DNA from: Clostridia bacterium
GTDB taxonomy: Bacteria; Bacillota; Clostridia; DUPQ01
Reading direction: 5' to 3'
Length of the DNA stretch: 34,681 nucleotides
NCBI GenBank assembly: GCA_016935835.1
Contig: JAFGQE010000121.1
Coordinates: 1 to 34,681 of the forward strand
In this document: positions 8,287 to 32,298 of the stretch, one piece after another
How the letters are laid out: each line of letters opens with the position of its first letter
How positions within the stretch are numbered: position 1 is the first letter of the stretch
The notes under the pieces: model-generated
Told to the model about the DNA's origin: nothing
What the model saw: the letters and a program-made list of their open reading frames with translations, nothing else
The model's database searches: none
Made by a program: the position numbers and the translations under genes

Positions 8287-8985
8287 ATGCCCATACTATA
8301 TACTTTGAAAAGCGAAGTGCTGGAAGCAAACAAAAGCCTCGAGAAGTTCGGTCTTGTGAATTTCACATGGGGAAATGTCAGCGGAATAGACCGCGATGAG
8401 GGCATAATAGTAATAAAACCGAGCGGAATCCCTTATTCGGAGCTTAAGGTGGACCAGATGGTGGTGATGGACCTTGAGGGAAATGTCATCGAGGGGGATT
8501 ACAAGCCTTCTAGCGACACTCCGTCTCATCTTGCCCTTTACAGGGAATTCAAGAATATAGGGGGCGTATGCCATTCCCATTCGCTGTGGGCCACGAGCTT
8601 TGCCCAGGCCAAAAGGGGCATACCGGTCCTTGGAACGACGCATTCGGACCATTTCAGGGGAGAGGTGCCTTGCAGCAGGCCTTTCCGGGATGAAGAGATA
8701 ACCGGCGACTATGAGGAAAACACCGGAAGGCTTATTCTTGAGACTTTTGCCGACAGGGATGAAAATGACATCCCGGCCGTGCTGGTCGCAGCCCACGGAC
8801 CCTTTACATGGGGGAAGGATGCGATGGATGCGGTCCAGAACGCGAGGGTGCTTGAGTTCGTGGCGGAGGCCGCATACCGCACTACGCTTCTAAACAGGGA
8901 TGTAAAGCAGATCAACCCGCTGCTGATTGAAAAGCATTTCCTGAGAAAGCATGGCAAGGATGCATATTACGGCCAGGTGAAATGA
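8287..8985 (+). CDS. araD: L-ribulose-5-phosphate 4-epimerase (class II aldolase family)
   Basis: FTWGNVSGIDRDEGIIVIKPSGIPYSEL, SSDTPSHLALYREFKNIGGVCHSHSLWATSFAQA, VLVAAHGPFTWG; immediately follows araB. Confidence 0.92.
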   Translation: MPILYTLKSEVLEANKSLEKFGLVNFTWGNVSGIDRDEGIIVIKPSGIPYSELKVDQMVVMDLEGNVIEGDYKPSSDTPSHLALYREFKNIGGVCHSHSLWATSFAQAKRGIPVLGTTHSDHFRGEVPCSRPFRDEEITGDYEENTGRLILETFADRDENDIPAVLVAAHGPFTWGKDAMDAVQNARVLEFVAEAAYRTTLLNRDVKQINPLLIEKHFLRKHGKDAYYGQVK

Positions 8986-9023
8986 AACGGCCCGCGGTCC
9001 TGAAGATATGATGCGGCGGGGAT

Positions 9024-9052
9024 TTGACAATATCCGCTTGTGAATATAGAAT
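9024..9052 (+). promoter_or_regulatory. Sigma-70-type promoter for the preQ1 leader
   Basis: TTGACA (9024-9029), 17-nt spacer, TAGAAT (9047-9052). Confidence 0.75.
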
Positions 9053-9067
9053 ATGCGTTGCAATAGC

Positions 9068-9110
9068 AGGGACAGTTCGCGACCATCCTGTCCGTAAAAA
9101 AAACTAGGGA
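9068..9110 (+). ncRNA. preQ1-I type riboswitch aptamer
   Basis: P1 GGACAG (9070-9075)/CTGTCC (9088-9093), loop TTCGCGACCATC, A-rich tail GTAAAAAAAACTAGGG; upstream of a QueT-like gene. Confidence 0.82.
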
Positions 9111-9128
9111 TATGTTTTATTGAACATA

Positions 9129-9154
9129 AACGGGTGGCGCACACCCGTTTTTTT
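9129..9154 (+). terminator. Rho-independent terminator of the preQ1 riboswitch expression platform
   Basis: AACGGGTG-gcgca-CACCCGTT then T-run (TTTTTTT 9148-9154). Confidence 0.9.
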
Positions 9155-9207
9155 ATGGATCCGGACTATAGCGGCCAAATCCCGGGGAATGCGGAGGGAA
9201 CTGAATC

Positions 9208-9723
9208 ATGAAAAAAATAGATGCGGCCTTCATTGCCCGGGCCGCCGTCATAGCGGCCCTGTATGCGGCGCTTACGATTGCCCTGGCGCCCATAAGCTTC
9301 GGACTTGTCCAGTTCCGTATAGCGGAGGCGCTTACAGTGCTCGCATATTTCACGCCGGCGGCGATACCGGGACTGTTCGCGGGATGCCTTATTGCGAATA
9401 TCATAGGTCCGTACGGCATGCTTGATATCATATTCGGCAGCATCGCCACACTGGCCGCGGCATTGCTGACTTATAGAATAAGGAACAAATATCTGGCGCC
9501 CCTTCCTCCTGTAATATTGAATTCCGTCATCGTAGGACCCCTGGTGGCGTATTTTGTCGATGTGCCCTTTTATCTGGGAATGCTTTATGTCGGGGCGGGA
9601 CAGCTGGCCGTATGCTATGCCCTGGGGCTGCCGCTTCTGCTGCTGCTGGAGCCCGGTGCCGGGAGGCTGTTCGGCGAAGCAAAAAACAAAGCTGCAAAAA
9701 CCACGGGCAAAAGACAGGGATGA
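9208..9723 (+). CDS. queT: QueT-family queuosine-precursor ECF transporter S component
   Basis: AALYAALTIALAPISFGLVQFRIAEALTVLAYFTPAAIPGLFAGCLIANI...G.LDIIFGSIATL; preceded by a preQ1 riboswitch. Confidence 0.92.
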   Translation: MKKIDAAFIARAAVIAALYAALTIALAPISFGLVQFRIAEALTVLAYFTPAAIPGLFAGCLIANIIGPYGMLDIIFGSIATLAAALLTYRIRNKYLAPLPPVILNSVIVGPLVAYFVDVPFYLGMLYVGAGQLAVCYALGLPLLLLLEPGAGRLFGEAKNKAAKTTGKRQG

Positions 9724-23392: not shown

Positions 23393-24685
23393 TTAAAAAT
23401 TTGGTTTTATGGCGTTGGTAATCCTGAAAATAACCGGATTCGGCCAGTCCCTGGAGGAATATGGCCTGTATGTGCGCATCGCATCAATGTGAAGACCGTT
23501 CTCATCCTGGTAAAACCGGGTTTTTGTATCAGCCTCGGGATGATGCTCGAGCACCTTCCCGGACTGGCCGACTATCTCTATTTCGGTCGCCGGGGTTATC
23601 CGCACGTTTTTAATGGTAAGACCGCGGCGCTCGCCGTGGCGCCACGGACTGTGCATGTTGAAGGCATAGACCGTATCGGTGCCGCGCTTTCTTGTGAAGA
23701 AGAAATTCTCCTCGCCGGCGATATGCCAGGGCCGGACGCCATAGATCGCCTCGTCACAGAAGAACATGAAAAGACCAAGCTCCTGGAGAAGCCTTTCCTG
23801 CTCGTGGGGAATCTCGCCGTAATGGTTGGGCGAGACATTGATGACCAGGTTGCCGCCTTTCGCCCTTGCTTCTATGAGAAGGTTTATTATCTCTGTGCCG
23901 GTCATGTAGGCCTGGTTTGTGGACTTGTAATTCCATGCATTCCCCATGAAGTAGCAGGCTTCCCAAGGCTCGGGCACTATATCGTCGGGAAGGCCGATCT
24001 CGGGGGTGGGCATCTCGCTCCTTGTGATGACCGCATCGGGGTTGAGCTCCCATACCACATTCTTGAGGTTGGCCGGGGGGCCGTCGAAGAAAACGGTGTC
24101 AATCCTGCCGTATTTGCCGAACAGCTCGCGTATCTGGGTTTCGTTGTATTCCATAAGGCCGGGGTTGTTGGCCGGGATGACTTCGGGTGTCATGAAGTGG
24201 AGCTCTTCTCCGGCGTTGAGGCACCAGTTGAAATCAAGCGGCGAGAAATAAATCCCGGTATTTATCCCGGCGGCCTGGAAAGCCGCCATTATTTCCTTGG
24301 TGGCATCCCTTGCAAAGGCGGTGTTCATTATATTAAACGGCGTGGTCTTTGTTTCGAACATACAGAATCCGCTGTGGTGCTTGGTTGTAAAAAGGGAATA
24401 CCGGATCCCCGCGGTCGCCGCAAGCCTCGCCCAGTCCGCGGGTCTGAACCTGACAGGGTCGAACAGCGGGGGCAGCACTTCATACATCTTCCGTATCTGC
24501 TCCTTATTGGCTCCGATCATCCAGTGGGATATGACGGAGCCAATTATGGAATCAAGGCTCCAATGTATGAAGAGCCCAAGGCCCTGGTCGAGGAACCATT
24601 CCTCGCGGTCCGGTTTGTTTCCCCTGCTTCGTTCAAGTTCCCCGATCGTATCATCCACAAAAATCCTGTTAAGCTTGTCTCCCAT
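23393..24685 (-). CDS. Glycoside hydrolase family 29 alpha-L-fucosidase-like
   Basis: LGLFIHWSLDSIIGSVISHWM, TKHHSGFCMFETKTTPFN, GKYGRIDTVFFDGPPANL (Asp nucleophile context); start MGDKLNR preferred (RBS aagggg); ORF track start 24706. Confidence 0.88.
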   Translation of the reverse strand: MGDKLNRIFVDDTIGELERSRGNKPDREEWFLDQGLGLFIHWSLDSIIGSVISHWMIGANKEQIRKMYEVLPPLFDPVRFRPADWARLAATAGIRYSLFTTKHHSGFCMFETKTTPFNIMNTAFARDATKEIMAAFQAAGINTGIYFSPLDFNWCLNAGEELHFMTPEVIPANNPGLMEYNETQIRELFGKYGRIDTVFFDGPPANLKNVVWELNPDAVITRSEMPTPEIGLPDDIVPEPWEACYFMGNAWNYKSTNQAYMTGTEIINLLIEARAKGGNLVINVSPNHYGEIPHEQERLLQELGLFMFFCDEAIYGVRPWHIAGEENFFFTRKRGTDTVYAFNMHSPWRHGERRGLTIKNVRITPATEIEIVGQSGKVLEHHPEADTKTRFYQDENGLHIDAMRTYRPYSSRDWPNPVIFRITNAIKPNF

Positions 24686-24720
24686 TACAATACCCCTTGT
24701 TTTCATAATCTGAGTTTTCC

Positions 24721-24897: not shown

Positions 24898-26193
24898 ATG
24901 GAAAGACCAATTGAAATTGCGATAGTCGGGTGCGGGAACAGGGGACGGGTATATGGACAATATGCCCTCGACGAGCCCGGCAGAATGAGAATAAAGGCCG
25001 TCGTCGAGCCGAATGTTTACAGAAGGGAACTTACCGGCGATAAGTTCGGCGTGCCAGCGGACATGCGTTTTGGAAGCCTGGACGCCTTCATATCCTCAGG
25101 CACGGAAGTGGACGCGGTCATCAACGCTACCATGGACAGGGAGCATTATGCAACGGCCAGGGCCATAATCGGCGCCGGGTATGACATGCTGATAGAAAAG
25201 CCTGTCTGCCTTGCAAAGGACGAGCTGATGGAGCTGTACGGCCTGGCGGTTGAAAAGGGAGTCAGGGTCATGGTATGCCATGTGCTGCGCTACGCGCCTT
25301 TCTATGTCGAAATAAAAAAGCGTATTCTTAGCGGAGAACTCGGGGACATACATTCCATGGTGACGGAGGAAAATGTCAGCTTCCATCATTACGCAACAGC
25401 ATTCGTAAGAGGCAAATGGGGCAACAGCGATGTGTGTGGTTCGCAGATATTGATGTCGAAATGCTGTCATGACCTTGATATCATAACCTGGCTCAAAAGC
25501 GGAACGGCCCCCTCATATGTGGCGAGCTTCGGCGGACTGTTCAATTACATCGACTCAAGGATGCCGGCCGGGGCGGGGGAGAGATGCACGGCCGGCTGCG
25601 GCATTTCGGAAAATTGCGAATACGACGCCGGGAAGATGTATGTAGGAAAGCGTCTTTGGAATTATTATGCGACCGAATACCTGGATTCATACGCGGACAG
25701 GGATTCCCAGGAAAGGCTCGGATGGAGCCTTGGCGAAAAGAATCCATACGGAAGATGCGTCTGGAAATGCGACAATAATGTGATGGACCATCAGACCGTG
25801 ATGATAGAGTTCGAGGATGGCTGCACGGTCAGCCACAACCTGCTGGGGGGAACCGCAAAACCCGACAGGACCATACACATAGCCGGTACGAAGGGCGAGA
25901 TCTACGGAAGCATGGAGTCCGGCAGTTTCTGCGTCAGGAAACCCGATCTTGAAAAACCGGAGCAGTACAATGAGGAAACGGTCGACATAAAGGCAGGAAT
26001 TGATGGACATGGCGGAGGTGACCTGCGCCTTGCGGCTGATTTCGTAAGCTATATAAAGGGCGAGGGCACATCGGTTTCCACAACGGAACTCGGGGATTCC
26101 ATTTACGGTCATTTGATCGGCTTTGGTGCGCATGAGGCGATGACAGGAAGGAAAGTAGTGGCAATCAGGAGGTTGAAGCATGGAAAATTATAA
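24898..26193 (+). CDS. Gfo/Idh/MocA-family NAD(P)-dependent oxidoreductase
   Basis: IEIAIVGCGNRGRVYGQYAL Rossmann motif, MLIEKPVCLAKDELMEL, C-terminal MocA-type domain with Cys cluster CTAGCGISENCEYDA. Confidence 0.92.
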   Translation: MERPIEIAIVGCGNRGRVYGQYALDEPGRMRIKAVVEPNVYRRELTGDKFGVPADMRFGSLDAFISSGTEVDAVINATMDREHYATARAIIGAGYDMLIEKPVCLAKDELMELYGLAVEKGVRVMVCHVLRYAPFYVEIKKRILSGELGDIHSMVTEENVSFHHYATAFVRGKWGNSDVCGSQILMSKCCHDLDIITWLKSGTAPSYVASFGGLFNYIDSRMPAGAGERCTAGCGISENCEYDAGKMYVGKRLWNYYATEYLDSYADRDSQERLGWSLGEKNPYGRCVWKCDNNVMDHQTVMIEFEDGCTVSHNLLGGTAKPDRTIHIAGTKGEIYGSMESGSFCVRKPDLEKPEQYNEETVDIKAGIDGHGGGDLRLAADFVSYIKGEGTSVSTTELGDSIYGHLIGFGAHEAMTGRKVVAIRRLKHGKL

Positions 26194-27004
26194 AAAGATA
26201 AAAACTGCGGCTGACTATGTCGGCGGGTTGCTGCCGGGCAAGCCGGTGATAGGAATGACACTGGGCTCGGGTCTTGGAATGCTTGCGGATACATTGGAGG
26301 ACCCCGTGGAAATAGGCTATGAAAGCATACCGGGATTCCCCGTATCCACGGTAAAGGGACATGAAGGGAAATTTGTTTACGGGGGCTTGTCGGGCAGGAA
26401 GGTCCTGGCCATGAAAGGGCGCTTCCATTATTTCGAGGGATATGAGATGAAGCAGGTCGTCATGGGCGTGCTTTTGATGAAGCTGCTGGGAATCAACGAT
26501 GTAATACTGACAAATGCCGCCGGAGGGATCAACGCCTCTTTTTCGGAAGGCTGCCTGATGCTTATAACCGACCACATCGGATTTATCGGTCCTTCCCCGC
26601 TGAGGGGTCTGAATATCGAAGAACTGGGCCCCAGGTTTCCGGACATGAGCGAGGTTTATTGCAGGAGGCATATCGCAAAGGCGGAGGAATGCGCGGCGGA
26701 AATGGGCATGGATATAGAGAGAGGGATTTACTGCTACGCACTGGGACCGCAATACGAGACGCCTGCGGAGATCAGGGCGATGAGGATTCTGGGTGCGGAT
26801 GCAGTCGGAATGTCGACGGTTCCCGAGGCGGTCGCAGCCAACCATGCAGGCATGAACGTGCTGGGGATATCATGCATCACGAACATGGCGGCGGGAATGG
26901 TGGACAAGCCGCTGTCGCATGCCGAGGTTATGGAAACGACCGAGCGCGTTCGCGGACAATTCATGGAATATATAAAAAGAATAGTCAAAAAGCTGGAGGT
27001 GTGA
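26180..27004 (+). CDS. Purine nucleoside phosphorylase, trimeric (class II, 6-oxopurine type)
   Basis: PGFPVSTVKGHEGKFVYGGLSGRKVLAMKGRFHYFEGY, ILTNAAGGIN, GPQYETPAEIRAMRILGADAVGMSTVPE, CITNMAAGM. Confidence 0.93.
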   Translation: MENYKKIKTAADYVGGLLPGKPVIGMTLGSGLGMLADTLEDPVEIGYESIPGFPVSTVKGHEGKFVYGGLSGRKVLAMKGRFHYFEGYEMKQVVMGVLLMKLLGINDVILTNAAGGINASFSEGCLMLITDHIGFIGPSPLRGLNIEELGPRFPDMSEVYCRRHIAKAEECAAEMGMDIERGIYCYALGPQYETPAEIRAMRILGADAVGMSTVPEAVAANHAGMNVLGISCITNMAAGMVDKPLSHAEVMETTERVRGQFMEYIKRIVKKLEV

Positions 27005-27005
27005 C

Positions 27006-28253
27006 ATGGAATATTTGATCAGGGACATATCGCTCGCGGAAGAGGGTGCTGGCAAAATTTCCTGGGTAAGGAGCAGGATGCCGGTGCTGGCCGGGCTTGA
27101 GGCGGAATTTGAGAAGGAAAAACCCTTCAAAGGTTTGAAAATAACTGTTTCGGTACATCTCGAGGCAAAGACGGCTTACCTTGCAAAGGTCCTGCACGCC
27201 GGCGGGGCAAGGGTAAGGGTCACCGGAAGCAATCCCTTGTCCACACAGGATGCCATCACGGCGGCGCTCGTAAAGGACGGGCTTGAGGTTTTCGCCTGGC
27301 ACGGGGCGACGCCCGAGGAATACAGGATGCACATAATGAAGGCCCTGGAATTCGGGCCGGACATAATAATCGACGACGGGGGGGACCTGGTGAATCTGCT
27401 GCACACGGAACTCGCCGAACTCAGCGGAAATGTCCTTGGAGGCTGCGAGGAAACCACGACCGGCGTATTAAGGCTAAGGGCCCTGGAAAAAGAGGGAATG
27501 CTGAGGTTCCCAATGTTCGCCGTCAATGATGCCGACTGCAAGCATCTGTTCGACAACAGGTACGGGACGGGACAATCAGCGTGGGACGGAATAATGAGGA
27601 CCACCAACCTCAGCATAGCCGGAAAGACGGCGGTGGTCGCGGGATACGGCTGGTGCGGAAAGGGAGTCGCCGCGAGGGCTGCCGGACTTGGAGCCAACGT
27701 CATTGTAACGGAAGTCAATCCGATCAGGGCGGTAGAGGCCGCAATGGATGGATTCAGGGTCATGCCGATGGACGAGGCTGCGCCGCTCGGGGACTTTTTC
27801 GTAACGGTCACCGGCTGCAGGGATGTCATCGGGGAAAGGCATTTCCCAAGGCTTAAAAACGGGGCCATACTTAGCAATGCCGGGCATTTCAATGTTGAGA
27901 TAGCGATGGAACGCCTCGAGCAGGAAGCGGTTTTAAAGTTTGAGCAGCGTAAAAATATAATGGGATATGAAATGCCGGACGGACGCATAATCAATGTGCT
28001 TGGCGAAGGCAGGCTTGTCAACCTGGCATGCGCCGACGGCCACCCCGCGGAAATAATGGACATGAGCTTCGCACTACAGGCGCTTTGCGCCAGGTTCATT
28101 GCGCAGGAAGCCGAGTATCTTGAGAAAGCCGTGCTTCCGGTACCTGCGCAGATTGATAATTTCGTTGCGCAAAAAGCGCTGCAATCAATGGGAATAACAA
28201 TAGACGAACTGACGGCCGGGCAGGAGGAATACCTCAGGAGCTGGCAGGCATGA
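27006..28253 (+). CDS. Adenosylhomocysteinase-family protein (possible S-inosylhomocysteine hydrolase)
   Basis: SNPLSTQDAITAAL, IIDDGGDLVNLLH, GCEETTTGVLRL, GYGWCGKGVAARAAGLGANVIVTEVNPIRAVEA, NAGHFNVEI; short form lacking the usual KPDHYRY tail. Confidence 0.93.
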   Translation: MEYLIRDISLAEEGAGKISWVRSRMPVLAGLEAEFEKEKPFKGLKITVSVHLEAKTAYLAKVLHAGGARVRVTGSNPLSTQDAITAALVKDGLEVFAWHGATPEEYRMHIMKALEFGPDIIIDDGGDLVNLLHTELAELSGNVLGGCEETTTGVLRLRALEKEGMLRFPMFAVNDADCKHLFDNRYGTGQSAWDGIMRTTNLSIAGKTAVVAGYGWCGKGVAARAAGLGANVIVTEVNPIRAVEAAMDGFRVMPMDEAAPLGDFFVTVTGCRDVIGERHFPRLKNGAILSNAGHFNVEIAMERLEQEAVLKFEQRKNIMGYEMPDGRIINVLGEGRLVNLACADGHPAEIMDMSFALQALCARFIAQEAEYLEKAVLPVPAQIDNFVAQKALQSMGITIDELTAGQEEYLRSWQA

Positions 28254-29554
28254 AGATGGATATCCTGATAGAAAACGCACGGATAATAACCGGATTTGCG
28301 GGGGCGATGTACGCCGGCAGGGGATTCATCGGCATAACCGGCGATGAAATAACCTATGTGGGCGAAACCGCTCCTGAAAAGACGGAGGTCAGGAAGCGGA
28401 TTGACGCAGGCAGGATGATAGCGATGCCCGGGTTGATGAATGCCCACACACACAGCCCGATGGTGCTGATGAGGAATTACGCAGCGGACCGCACGCTGGA
28501 TGACTGGCTATATAAAAGCATAATTCCAATCGAAAATAAACTCACGCGGGAGCATATCCGCAATGGTTCGATGCTGGCGATTGCGGAAATGATAAAAAGC
28601 GGGACCACAGCATTCCTCGACATGTATTTTGATGTGGACTGCACCGCGGAGGCCGCGCTTGAGGCGGGCATCCGCGCCAATGTCTCGCTGGGCCTGCTTA
28701 CATCCCACAATATGAACAATGGCCTCGAAGACGCGAAGGCTTTCTGCAGGAAATTCTACTCAAGGTACCATGGCGCCGGGAACGGCCTGCTCAGGACATC
28801 GCTGGAAGTGCATTCCGTTTATTTATATAACGAAGGAACGCTTCGTGATTCGGCTGAATTCGCCGCCGAGACGGGTATGACCGTCAACATACACCTCCAT
28901 GAGACAAAATCCGAGGTGGAACGCGCATATGGGGAATATGGAATGTCGCCCATCGGCATTTGCCGTGAAACAGGGCTGCTCGACGGCCCCGTCGCAGCAG
29001 CGCATACGGTTTGGCTGACAGACCAGGATATGGACATAATCAAGGAAAAGAAAGTGGTGCCGGTGCACAATCCTTCAAGCAACATGTATCTGGCCAGCGG
29101 ATTCGCCCCGGTTCCCGAAATGCTGGCCAAGGGCATCAGGGTGGCGCTTGGAACTGACGGCGCAGCAAGCAACAACGATCTGGACATGTTCGGGGAGATG
29201 CACATTGCCGGGTTGATCCATAAGGGGAGAACACTCGACCCCACCGCGGTCAGCGCGGAAAATGTAATTGAAATGGCCTGTGCAAACGGTGCGCAGGCCA
29301 TGGGATTCGGTGCATCCGGGACAATCCGGACCGGGAACAAGGCCGACATCATACTTGTTGACGCCGATGGACTGCACAATGTGCCGATGCTCAACCCCGT
29401 GAATGCAATGGTGTACAGCACAAGCGGCGCCGATGTTGATACGGTCATAATAAACGGCAGGACAGTCATGGAAAACCGCAGGCTCATGACAATGGACGAA
29501 GAGAAAATCAGGTACAACCTGAAAAAAAGTGCTTCGGAACTCTTCAATATTTGA
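28250..29554 (+). CDS. mtaD: 5-methylthioadenosine/S-adenosylhomocysteine deaminase-like amidohydrolase
   Basis: MPGLMNAHTHSPMVLMRNYAADRTLDDWL, VNIHLHETKSEVE, VPVHNPSSNMYLASG, LGTDGAASNNDLDMFGEM. Confidence 0.92.
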   Translation: MKMDILIENARIITGFAGAMYAGRGFIGITGDEITYVGETAPEKTEVRKRIDAGRMIAMPGLMNAHTHSPMVLMRNYAADRTLDDWLYKSIIPIENKLTREHIRNGSMLAIAEMIKSGTTAFLDMYFDVDCTAEAALEAGIRANVSLGLLTSHNMNNGLEDAKAFCRKFYSRYHGAGNGLLRTSLEVHSVYLYNEGTLRDSAEFAAETGMTVNIHLHETKSEVERAYGEYGMSPIGICRETGLLDGPVAAAHTVWLTDQDMDIIKEKKVVPVHNPSSNMYLASGFAPVPEMLAKGIRVALGTDGAASNNDLDMFGEMHIAGLIHKGRTLDPTAVSAENVIEMACANGAQAMGFGASGTIRTGNKADIILVDADGLHNVPMLNPVNAMVYSTSGADVDTVIINGRTVMENRRLMTMDEEKIRYNLKKSASELFNI

Positions 29555-31697: not shown

Positions 31698-31901
31698 ATG
31701 AAGATATACTCGTCAATGGATGTACTGAGAATTTTGTATAAAGACGGCTGGTACATTAAAAGACAACATGGTTCTCACCTGCAATTGGTCAATGAACTCA
31801 AAAAAGGGAAGGCGACCTTGCCTTATCCGCGAAAATCATTGGATCCAAAGACAGTTGGAAGCATCTTCATGCAGGCCGGAATTATTCATAAGGAGCCGTA
31901 G
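31698..31901 (+). CDS. hicA: HicA-family mRNA interferase toxin
   Basis: SSMDVLRILYKDGWYIKRQHGSHLQLVNELKKGKATLPYPRKSLDPKTVGSIFMQAGI: HicA fold with the conserved GSH motif. Confidence 0.9.
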   Translation: MKIYSSMDVLRILYKDGWYIKRQHGSHLQLVNELKKGKATLPYPRKSLDPKTVGSIFMQAGIIHKEP

Positions 31902-31902
31902 T

Positions 31903-32298
31903 ATGGATAGATATATTTTTCCTGCCATATTTGAAAAAGGGGATATCAAGGGTTATTCAATAGTTTTCCCGGATTTGCCCGGATGCATAACGGAAGGCGA
32001 TGATATTGCCGAATCATTCCAAATGGCACGCGAAGCGCTTGAACTCTTCATATTTGACATGGAAGAAGAAAAGGACTCCATACCGGTACCATCGGATCCG
32101 TTTCGGTTTGATGTGCCGGAAAATGCTTTCATAAGCATGGTCGAAGTATGGATGCCTGTTGTCAGGGATGAGATAAGGAACAGGGCGGTCAAAAAAACAC
32201 TTACAATCCCAAAGTGGCTGAATGACATTGCAACTGAAAGAAAAGTCAATTTTTCTCAGGTTTTACAGGCCGCGCTCAAGAAATATCTTGGCTTGTAA
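31903..32298 (+). CDS. hicB: HicB-family antitoxin with C-terminal ribbon-helix-helix
   Basis: MDRYIFPAIFEKGDIKGYSIVFPDLPGCITEGDDIAESFQMAREALEL and C-term KKTLTIPKWLNDIATERKVNFSQVLQAALKKYL; ATG at 31903 after RBS aagga. Confidence 0.92.
   Translation: MDRYIFPAIFEKGDIKGYSIVFPDLPGCITEGDDIAESFQMAREALELFIFDMEEEKDSIPVPSDPFRFDVPENAFISMVEVWMPVVRDEIRNRAVKKTLTIPKWLNDIATERKVNFSQVLQAALKKYLGL

Follow-up and report, generated by a model that had tools for sequence, protein, structure and literature searches.

S-Adenosylhomocysteine (SAH) has to be removed for methylation to go on. In Methanocaldococcus jannaschii, SAH is deaminated by DadD to S-inosylhomocysteine (SIH), which then serves as substrate for SIH hydrolase (EC 3.13.1.9), an AhcY homologue belonging to the group that prefers SIH. 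Thermotoga maritima combines a bacterial deaminase of methylthioadenosine (MTA) and SAH, TM0936, with an archaeal-type SAH hydrolase, TmSAHH, that strongly prefers hypoxanthine derivatives (PMC10978960). SAH is also detoxified to homocysteine by a nucleosidase (MTAN, also called Pfs or MtnN), which yields adenine and S-ribosylhomocysteine, together with LuxS. In Pseudomonas aeruginosa, an MTA deaminase is paired with a methylthioinosine phosphorylase (Guan et al. 2011, 2012, as cited in PMC6302742). Here we describe a 34,681-nt stretch of DNA from a member of the Clostridia (contig JAFGQE010000121.1; referred to below as the window), in which genes for a purine nucleoside phosphorylase (PNP), an AhcY homologue and an MtaD/DadD-type deaminase form an operon. 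From its sequence, we propose that this operon is an SAH salvage unit working via SIH, inosine and hypoxanthine, a reading to which we assign a probability of about 0.74.

The window resembles the M. jannaschii pair in its predicted chemistry but belongs to a mesophilic-type clostridial lineage rather than to an archaeal hyperthermophile, keeps its genes in one operon and couples them to a PNP. T. maritima differs in that it encodes MTAN as well (it served as the control of our MTAN search) and in that the window deaminase lacks Arg136 and Arg148 of TM0936. Unlike systems that use MTAN and LuxS, the genome containing the window yielded neither of these genes. P. aeruginosa shares the deamination that precedes cleavage of a 6-oxopurine nucleoside, the logic of the PNP-LuxS-MtaD relatives described below, but as its system is cited in PMC6302742 the substrate is MTA, not SAH, and the cassette holds neither AhcY nor LuxS.

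We examined the open reading frames of the window and their translations and assigned families by profile-model searches (Table 1). The contiguity of the three genes recorded in a sequence-only reading agrees with the open reading frame coordinates: a single base (27005) separates PNP from ahcY, and ahcY and the deaminase gene share 4 nt (ATGA, 28250-28253). A Shine-Dalgarno-like sequence lies ahead of each of the three starts (AGGAGG, 26167-26172; GGAGG, 26995-26999; AGGAG, 28236-28240). In the proposed chain, the deaminase would convert SAH to SIH, a step that is putative; the AhcY homologue would cleave SIH to homocysteine and inosine, as its published fingerprint strongly indicates; and the PNP would split inosine by phosphorolysis into hypoxanthine and ribose-1-phosphate, which both its family and its active-site residues support well. 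Homocysteine would then be recycled into methionine, and hypoxanthine would re-enter the purine pool. The case for this chain is carried by the HxExK motif of AhcY and by co-occurrence across genomes, not by gene order.

Table 1. Coordinates of the salvage operon, its upstream gene and related LuxS operons (plain positions are those of the window)
Feature	Position	Strand	Size	Basis or remark
Gfo/Idh/MocA oxidoreductase	24898-26193	+	431 aa	Open reading frame and profile match
Trimeric PNP	26180-27004	+	274 aa	TIGR01700 322.9 bits (cut-off 293), NF006054 362.5 bits
AhcY homologue, archaeal type, HxExK; predicted SIH hydrolase	27006-28253	+	415 aa	NF004005 659.8 bits
HxExK codons (H51-L52-E53-A54-K55 of AhcY)	27156-27170	+		Fingerprint meaning from PMC10978960
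MtaD/DadD-type amidohydrolase; predicted SAH (MTA, 5'-deoxyadenosine) deaminase	28250-29554	+	434 aa	Amidohydro_1 213.5 bits
purL-PNP-LuxS-MtaD operons	L185:6978-9495 (PNP 8689-9495), L182:8203-11365	- (both)		Genomes without MTAN; His257 replaced
purL-PNP-LuxS-MtaD operons	L231, L232, L235, L241, L243			Genomes without MTAN; His257 replaced

Koeppl et al. (2024) assayed 18 enzymes and found a preference for SIH among AhcY homologues with HxExK and for SAH among those with HxTxE(Q); crystal structures show that the HxExK Lys can bond O6 of hypoxanthine (PMC10978960). The window AhcY reads V-H51-L-E53-A-K55-T and thus carries HxExK. It lies above the cut-offs of both TIGR00936 and NF004005, and its best match in the PDB is the Methanococcus maripaludis enzyme 7r3a (MmaSAHH), itself named S-inosyl-L-homocysteine hydrolase, followed by Pyrococcus furiosus 7r37 and then T. 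maritima 3x2e. With 7r3a and 7r37 it aligns nearly without gaps, having the archaeal-type length that lacks an insert of ~40 aa. In a tree of 96 AhcY sequences, those with HxExK, including the M. maripaludis, P. furiosus and window proteins, share one side of a branch that has 100% SH-aLRT support. Sequences from named loci nest among those of the class genomes in this tree, which points to Clostridia as the class. Together with the distribution of the deaminase and the lack of LuxS and MTAN in the window's assembly, both given below, the motif and the tree support a preference of the window AhcY for SIH over SAH.

The distribution was assessed in 148 genomes sampled evenly across the same class, with a deaminase called at E <= 1e-60. 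AhcY is present in 71 of these genomes, and its motif is readable as HxExK in 64; every one of the 64 also has the deaminase. The five AhcY genomes without it have either an AhcY fragment only (G002, G067) or HxTxE (G012, G015, G028), so that none of the three HxTxE genomes reaches the deaminase threshold. In G028, the HxTxE AhcY (L101:2774-4024(+)) is flanked by a PNP and by an amidohydrolase that is cut off at the contig end; given this exception, we do not claim as a perfect rule that HxTxE means no deaminase. AhcY is found together with LuxS in 1 of 71 AhcY genomes and together with MTAN in 9 of 71; for LuxS with MTAN, the count is 35 of 43. On these counts, the class has two alternative sets, SIH-type AhcY with the deaminase and MTAN with LuxS; because the species are related, Fisher values for such co-occurrence overstate independence.

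These data bear on a classical order of steps, in which AhcY would split SAH into adenosine and homocysteine, the amidohydrolase would convert adenosine to inosine and the PNP would split inosine. The sequence-only reading had held that an AhcY releasing adenosine would be hard to reconcile with the gene order. That argument fails: TM0936 also accepts adenosine (PMC4372640), so a route from SAH to adenosine to inosine would need the same genes. The residual SAH activity of SIH-preferring AhcY enzymes (PMC10978960) and the lack of the Thermotoga-type arginines in the window deaminase also favor the classical order. Against it stand the HxExK motif, which marks hypoxanthine preference, the exact co-occurrence of HxExK with the deaminase (two of the three HxTxE genomes lack a deaminase) and the related cassettes that pair the deaminase with LuxS, a pathway that does not release adenosine. 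We therefore consider the classical order unlikely, and the SIH chain proposed by the sequence-only reading is supported by the motif, the tree, the co-occurrence and the absence of LuxS and MTAN.

The deaminase gene lies within 400 nt of the HxExK ahcY on the same strand at 31 of 64 loci, from about 16 families, and a PNP gene does so at 22 of 64. The order PNP-AhcY-MtaD occurs at ten HxExK loci of the class, one of them the window, and named genomes add two more, L102 (Clostridiaceae bacterium DTU079) and L179. Many families of the class repeat these neighbors beside AhcY, so the gene order is not due to chance. A loose purine-salvage cluster with no joint pathway would fit the dispersal of the three genes in many relatives and the placement of related clusters in purine biosynthesis operons beside purL. 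The overlapping and 1-nt junctions, the adjacency repeated across about 16 families and the exact genome-level co-occurrence make this explanation highly improbable. At L043, L046, L086, L096 and L097, purL-sized genes (about 1230-1280 aa) adjoin the AhcY cassette or lie one gene off, which suggests, from size alone, that AhcY cassettes are tied to purine biosynthesis operons outside the LuxS variant too.

The window PNP scores above the cut-off of TIGR01700, the "inosine and guanosine-specific" model. The Glu (YETPAE) and Asn (CITNMAAG) that the sequence-only reading took to specify 6-oxopurines are both present and correspond to E201 and N243 of human PNP. S33, R84, H86, S220 and H257 of the human enzyme are conserved as well, so the set covers base, phosphate and 5'-OH contacts. 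His257 of human PNP contacts the substrate directly and is important yet dispensable (PMC7338719); the 5'-OH contact of this residue is treated in PMC4308819. It is thus well supported, at the level of family and residues, that the window PNP splits inosine (and guanosine). At five loci where a PNP adjoins AhcY with no deaminase alongside (L074, L084, L087, L090 and L143), the His257 equivalent is Q, G, E, E and N, respectively.

Several points weigh against the SIH route, and the deaminase is its weakest link. The protein meets the residue test for amidohydrolase deaminases, with the metal-binding and catalytic positions H55, H57, E84, H173, H200, E203, H228, D279 and S283 (TM0936 numbering) all conserved, and its best PDB match is the MTA/SAH deaminase 4f0r. 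Profile models uphold the family identities of all three proteins; the deaminase has MtaD/DadD-like models among its best matches but stays below the curated equivalog cut-offs, with 245.7 of 779 bits for NF012037 (MTA/SAH deaminase) and 330.7 of 522 bits for NF005557 (5'-deoxyadenosine deaminase). Where TM0936 has R136, the window deaminase and that of L035 have Leu, and both lack an Arg at the position of R148. These two arginines, which we take to be ligands of the homocysteine carboxylate of SAH, are kept in most deaminases of HxExK genomes, and homology leaves homocysteine binding by the window enzyme unexplained. Because Arg is absent at 136 and probably at 148, SAH is a substrate that we can only infer. 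The crystallized 4f0r likewise lacks R136, so Leu at this position does not exclude SAH; since 4f0r also lacks these arginines, we no longer used them to judge SAH specificity in general.

The same residue bears on another alternative, in which the deaminase would act mainly on MTA and 5'-deoxyadenosine, by-products of polyamine and radical-SAM (S-adenosylmethionine) chemistry, with AhcY acting on SAH directly and the cluster serving SAM by-product salvage. The hydrophobic residue at position 136 would suit this role, and in a genome where no MTAN was found these by-products need another exit. The HxExK motif of AhcY argues against it, as does the window PNP, whose retained 5'-OH-contacting His fits inosine better than 5'-deoxyinosine or methylthioinosine; we regard it as improbable, somewhat more so than the classical order. 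In addition to its proposed role in the SIH chain, the deaminase probably disposes of MTA and 5'-deoxyadenosine as well, given that no MTAN was found.

Further points against the SIH chain come from the enzymology of AhcY and from the rest of the genome. SIH-preferring AhcY enzymes retain weak SAH cleavage (PMC10978960, Table 1). The assembly containing the window (2.34 Mb, 180 contigs) is 91% complete, and the search for Pfs/MtnN and LuxS that the sequence-only reading had called for detected neither in it; their absence could be an assembly gap. Genomes of the same family also lack LuxS and MTAN. The genome has one deaminase of the MtaD/DadD kind, two nucleoside-hydrolase homologues elsewhere and a second PNP-superfamily gene, for a DeoD-like PNP, divergent from apt (L004:784-2157). 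We rejected this second PNP_UDP_1 protein as an MTAN on account of its DeoD-like sequence and its apt neighbor. With it, salvage of adenosine and adenine is also possible, so the avoidance of adenosine that the sequence-only reading had seen in the operon is not forced.

Relatives outside the window hold the more novel content. Four genomes of the class sample (G016, G051, G078 and G106), all of family f17, have the deaminase gene beside luxS and contain neither AhcY nor MTAN. Their operon reads purL-PNP-LuxS-MtaD, with LuxS occupying the place of AhcY; purE-purM comes immediately next in G078, and in G016 other genes intervene. In a survey of 38 f17 genomes, operons of this layout were seen again in genera g19 and g68, and genus g115 has purL-PNP-LuxS-MTAN-purE, with MTAN in the slot of MtaD. 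Table 1 lists loci of the purL-PNP-LuxS-MtaD type; in L233 and L242, MTAN takes the slot of MtaD. MtaD occurs in 18 of the 38 and MTAN in another 18, with no overlap; two have neither. Most f17 genomes with MtaD have a single PF01048 protein, the cassette PNP itself; G159 has a second one with a weak DeoD match. Nucleoside hydrolases were rejected as the SIH-cleaving enzyme of LuxS-MtaD genomes, being absent from several, including the single-contig G152.

The PNPs of these cassettes differ at one position. The equivalent of His257 is Arg, Lys, Gln, Glu or Thr in 14 of 15 PNPs from LuxS-MtaD cassettes and His in all 13 from PNP-AhcY-MtaD cassettes and all 4 from LuxS cassettes without MtaD. 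A Lys is found there in L246:1473-3558(+), a purL-PNP-MtaD-purE-purM locus of G162, a genome in which LuxS was not detected. The phosphate-site residues Arg84, His86 and Ser220 are kept in the LuxS-MtaD PNPs, and Ser33 is mostly Thr. Since these PNPs form one clade (99% support), the Fisher P for the His257 association was not used as a probability, and the loss is counted as one event with continued variation, a pattern that would be expected for a substrate lacking the 5'-OH.

The substrate of LuxS is free S-ribosylhomocysteine. On the simplest reading of the f17 variant, MtaD would deaminate SAH to SIH, the PNP with the eroded His would cleave SIH to hypoxanthine and S-ribosylhomocysteine or its 1-phosphate, and the LuxS step would give homocysteine and 4,5-dihydroxy-2,3-pentanedione (DPD)/autoinducer 2 (AI-2). 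We put at even odds that MtaD and an SIH-cleaving PNP replace MTAN in g19 and g68 and feed LuxS in this way, as an MTAN-independent route to AI-2. A link between an SAH deaminase and LuxS was not found in the open-access literature beyond PMC10978960, a coverage that leaves subscription journals outside.

Upstream of the operon, the Gfo/Idh/MocA oxidoreductase gene extends the unit, overlapping the PNP start by 14 nt; it is probably cotranscribed with PNP, and L035, from the same genus, and L040, from the same family, share the order GFO-PNP-AhcY-MtaD. An alpha-L-fucosidase-like gene (23393-24706 (-)) lies upstream of and divergent from it, and the open reading frame at 31768-32298 looks, by eye, like a HicB-type antitoxin. 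An SAM or SAH riboswitch was considered as operon control and rejected, with no Rfam match near the genes of the window and 18 related loci.

The SIH route has been described as restricted to Euryarchaeota and related thermophilic bacteria (PMC10978960), and its demonstration to date comes mainly from thermophilic archaea and Thermotoga. When named genomes were scanned, the best 80 loci all had HxExK. They belong to Clostridia, Paenibacillus, Brevibacillus and Bacteroidales, largely mesophiles; those from Paenibacillus and gut Bacteroidales extend this type of AhcY beyond the class. Our sequence comparisons support the addition of a mesophilic lineage, that of the window, to the known SIH salvage route, and over much of this class, whose members are mostly mesophilic clostridia, the route is apparently the norm. 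Given the distribution of HxExK, "adenosylhomocysteinase" annotations in gut bacteria are to be read differently. The PNP-LuxS-MtaD operons bear on how SIH might be disposed of without an SIH hydrolase and how LuxS might be supplied with substrate without MTAN; if the proposal holds, both the MTAN-independent path to AI-2 and the cleavage of SIH by a member of the PNP family would be new.

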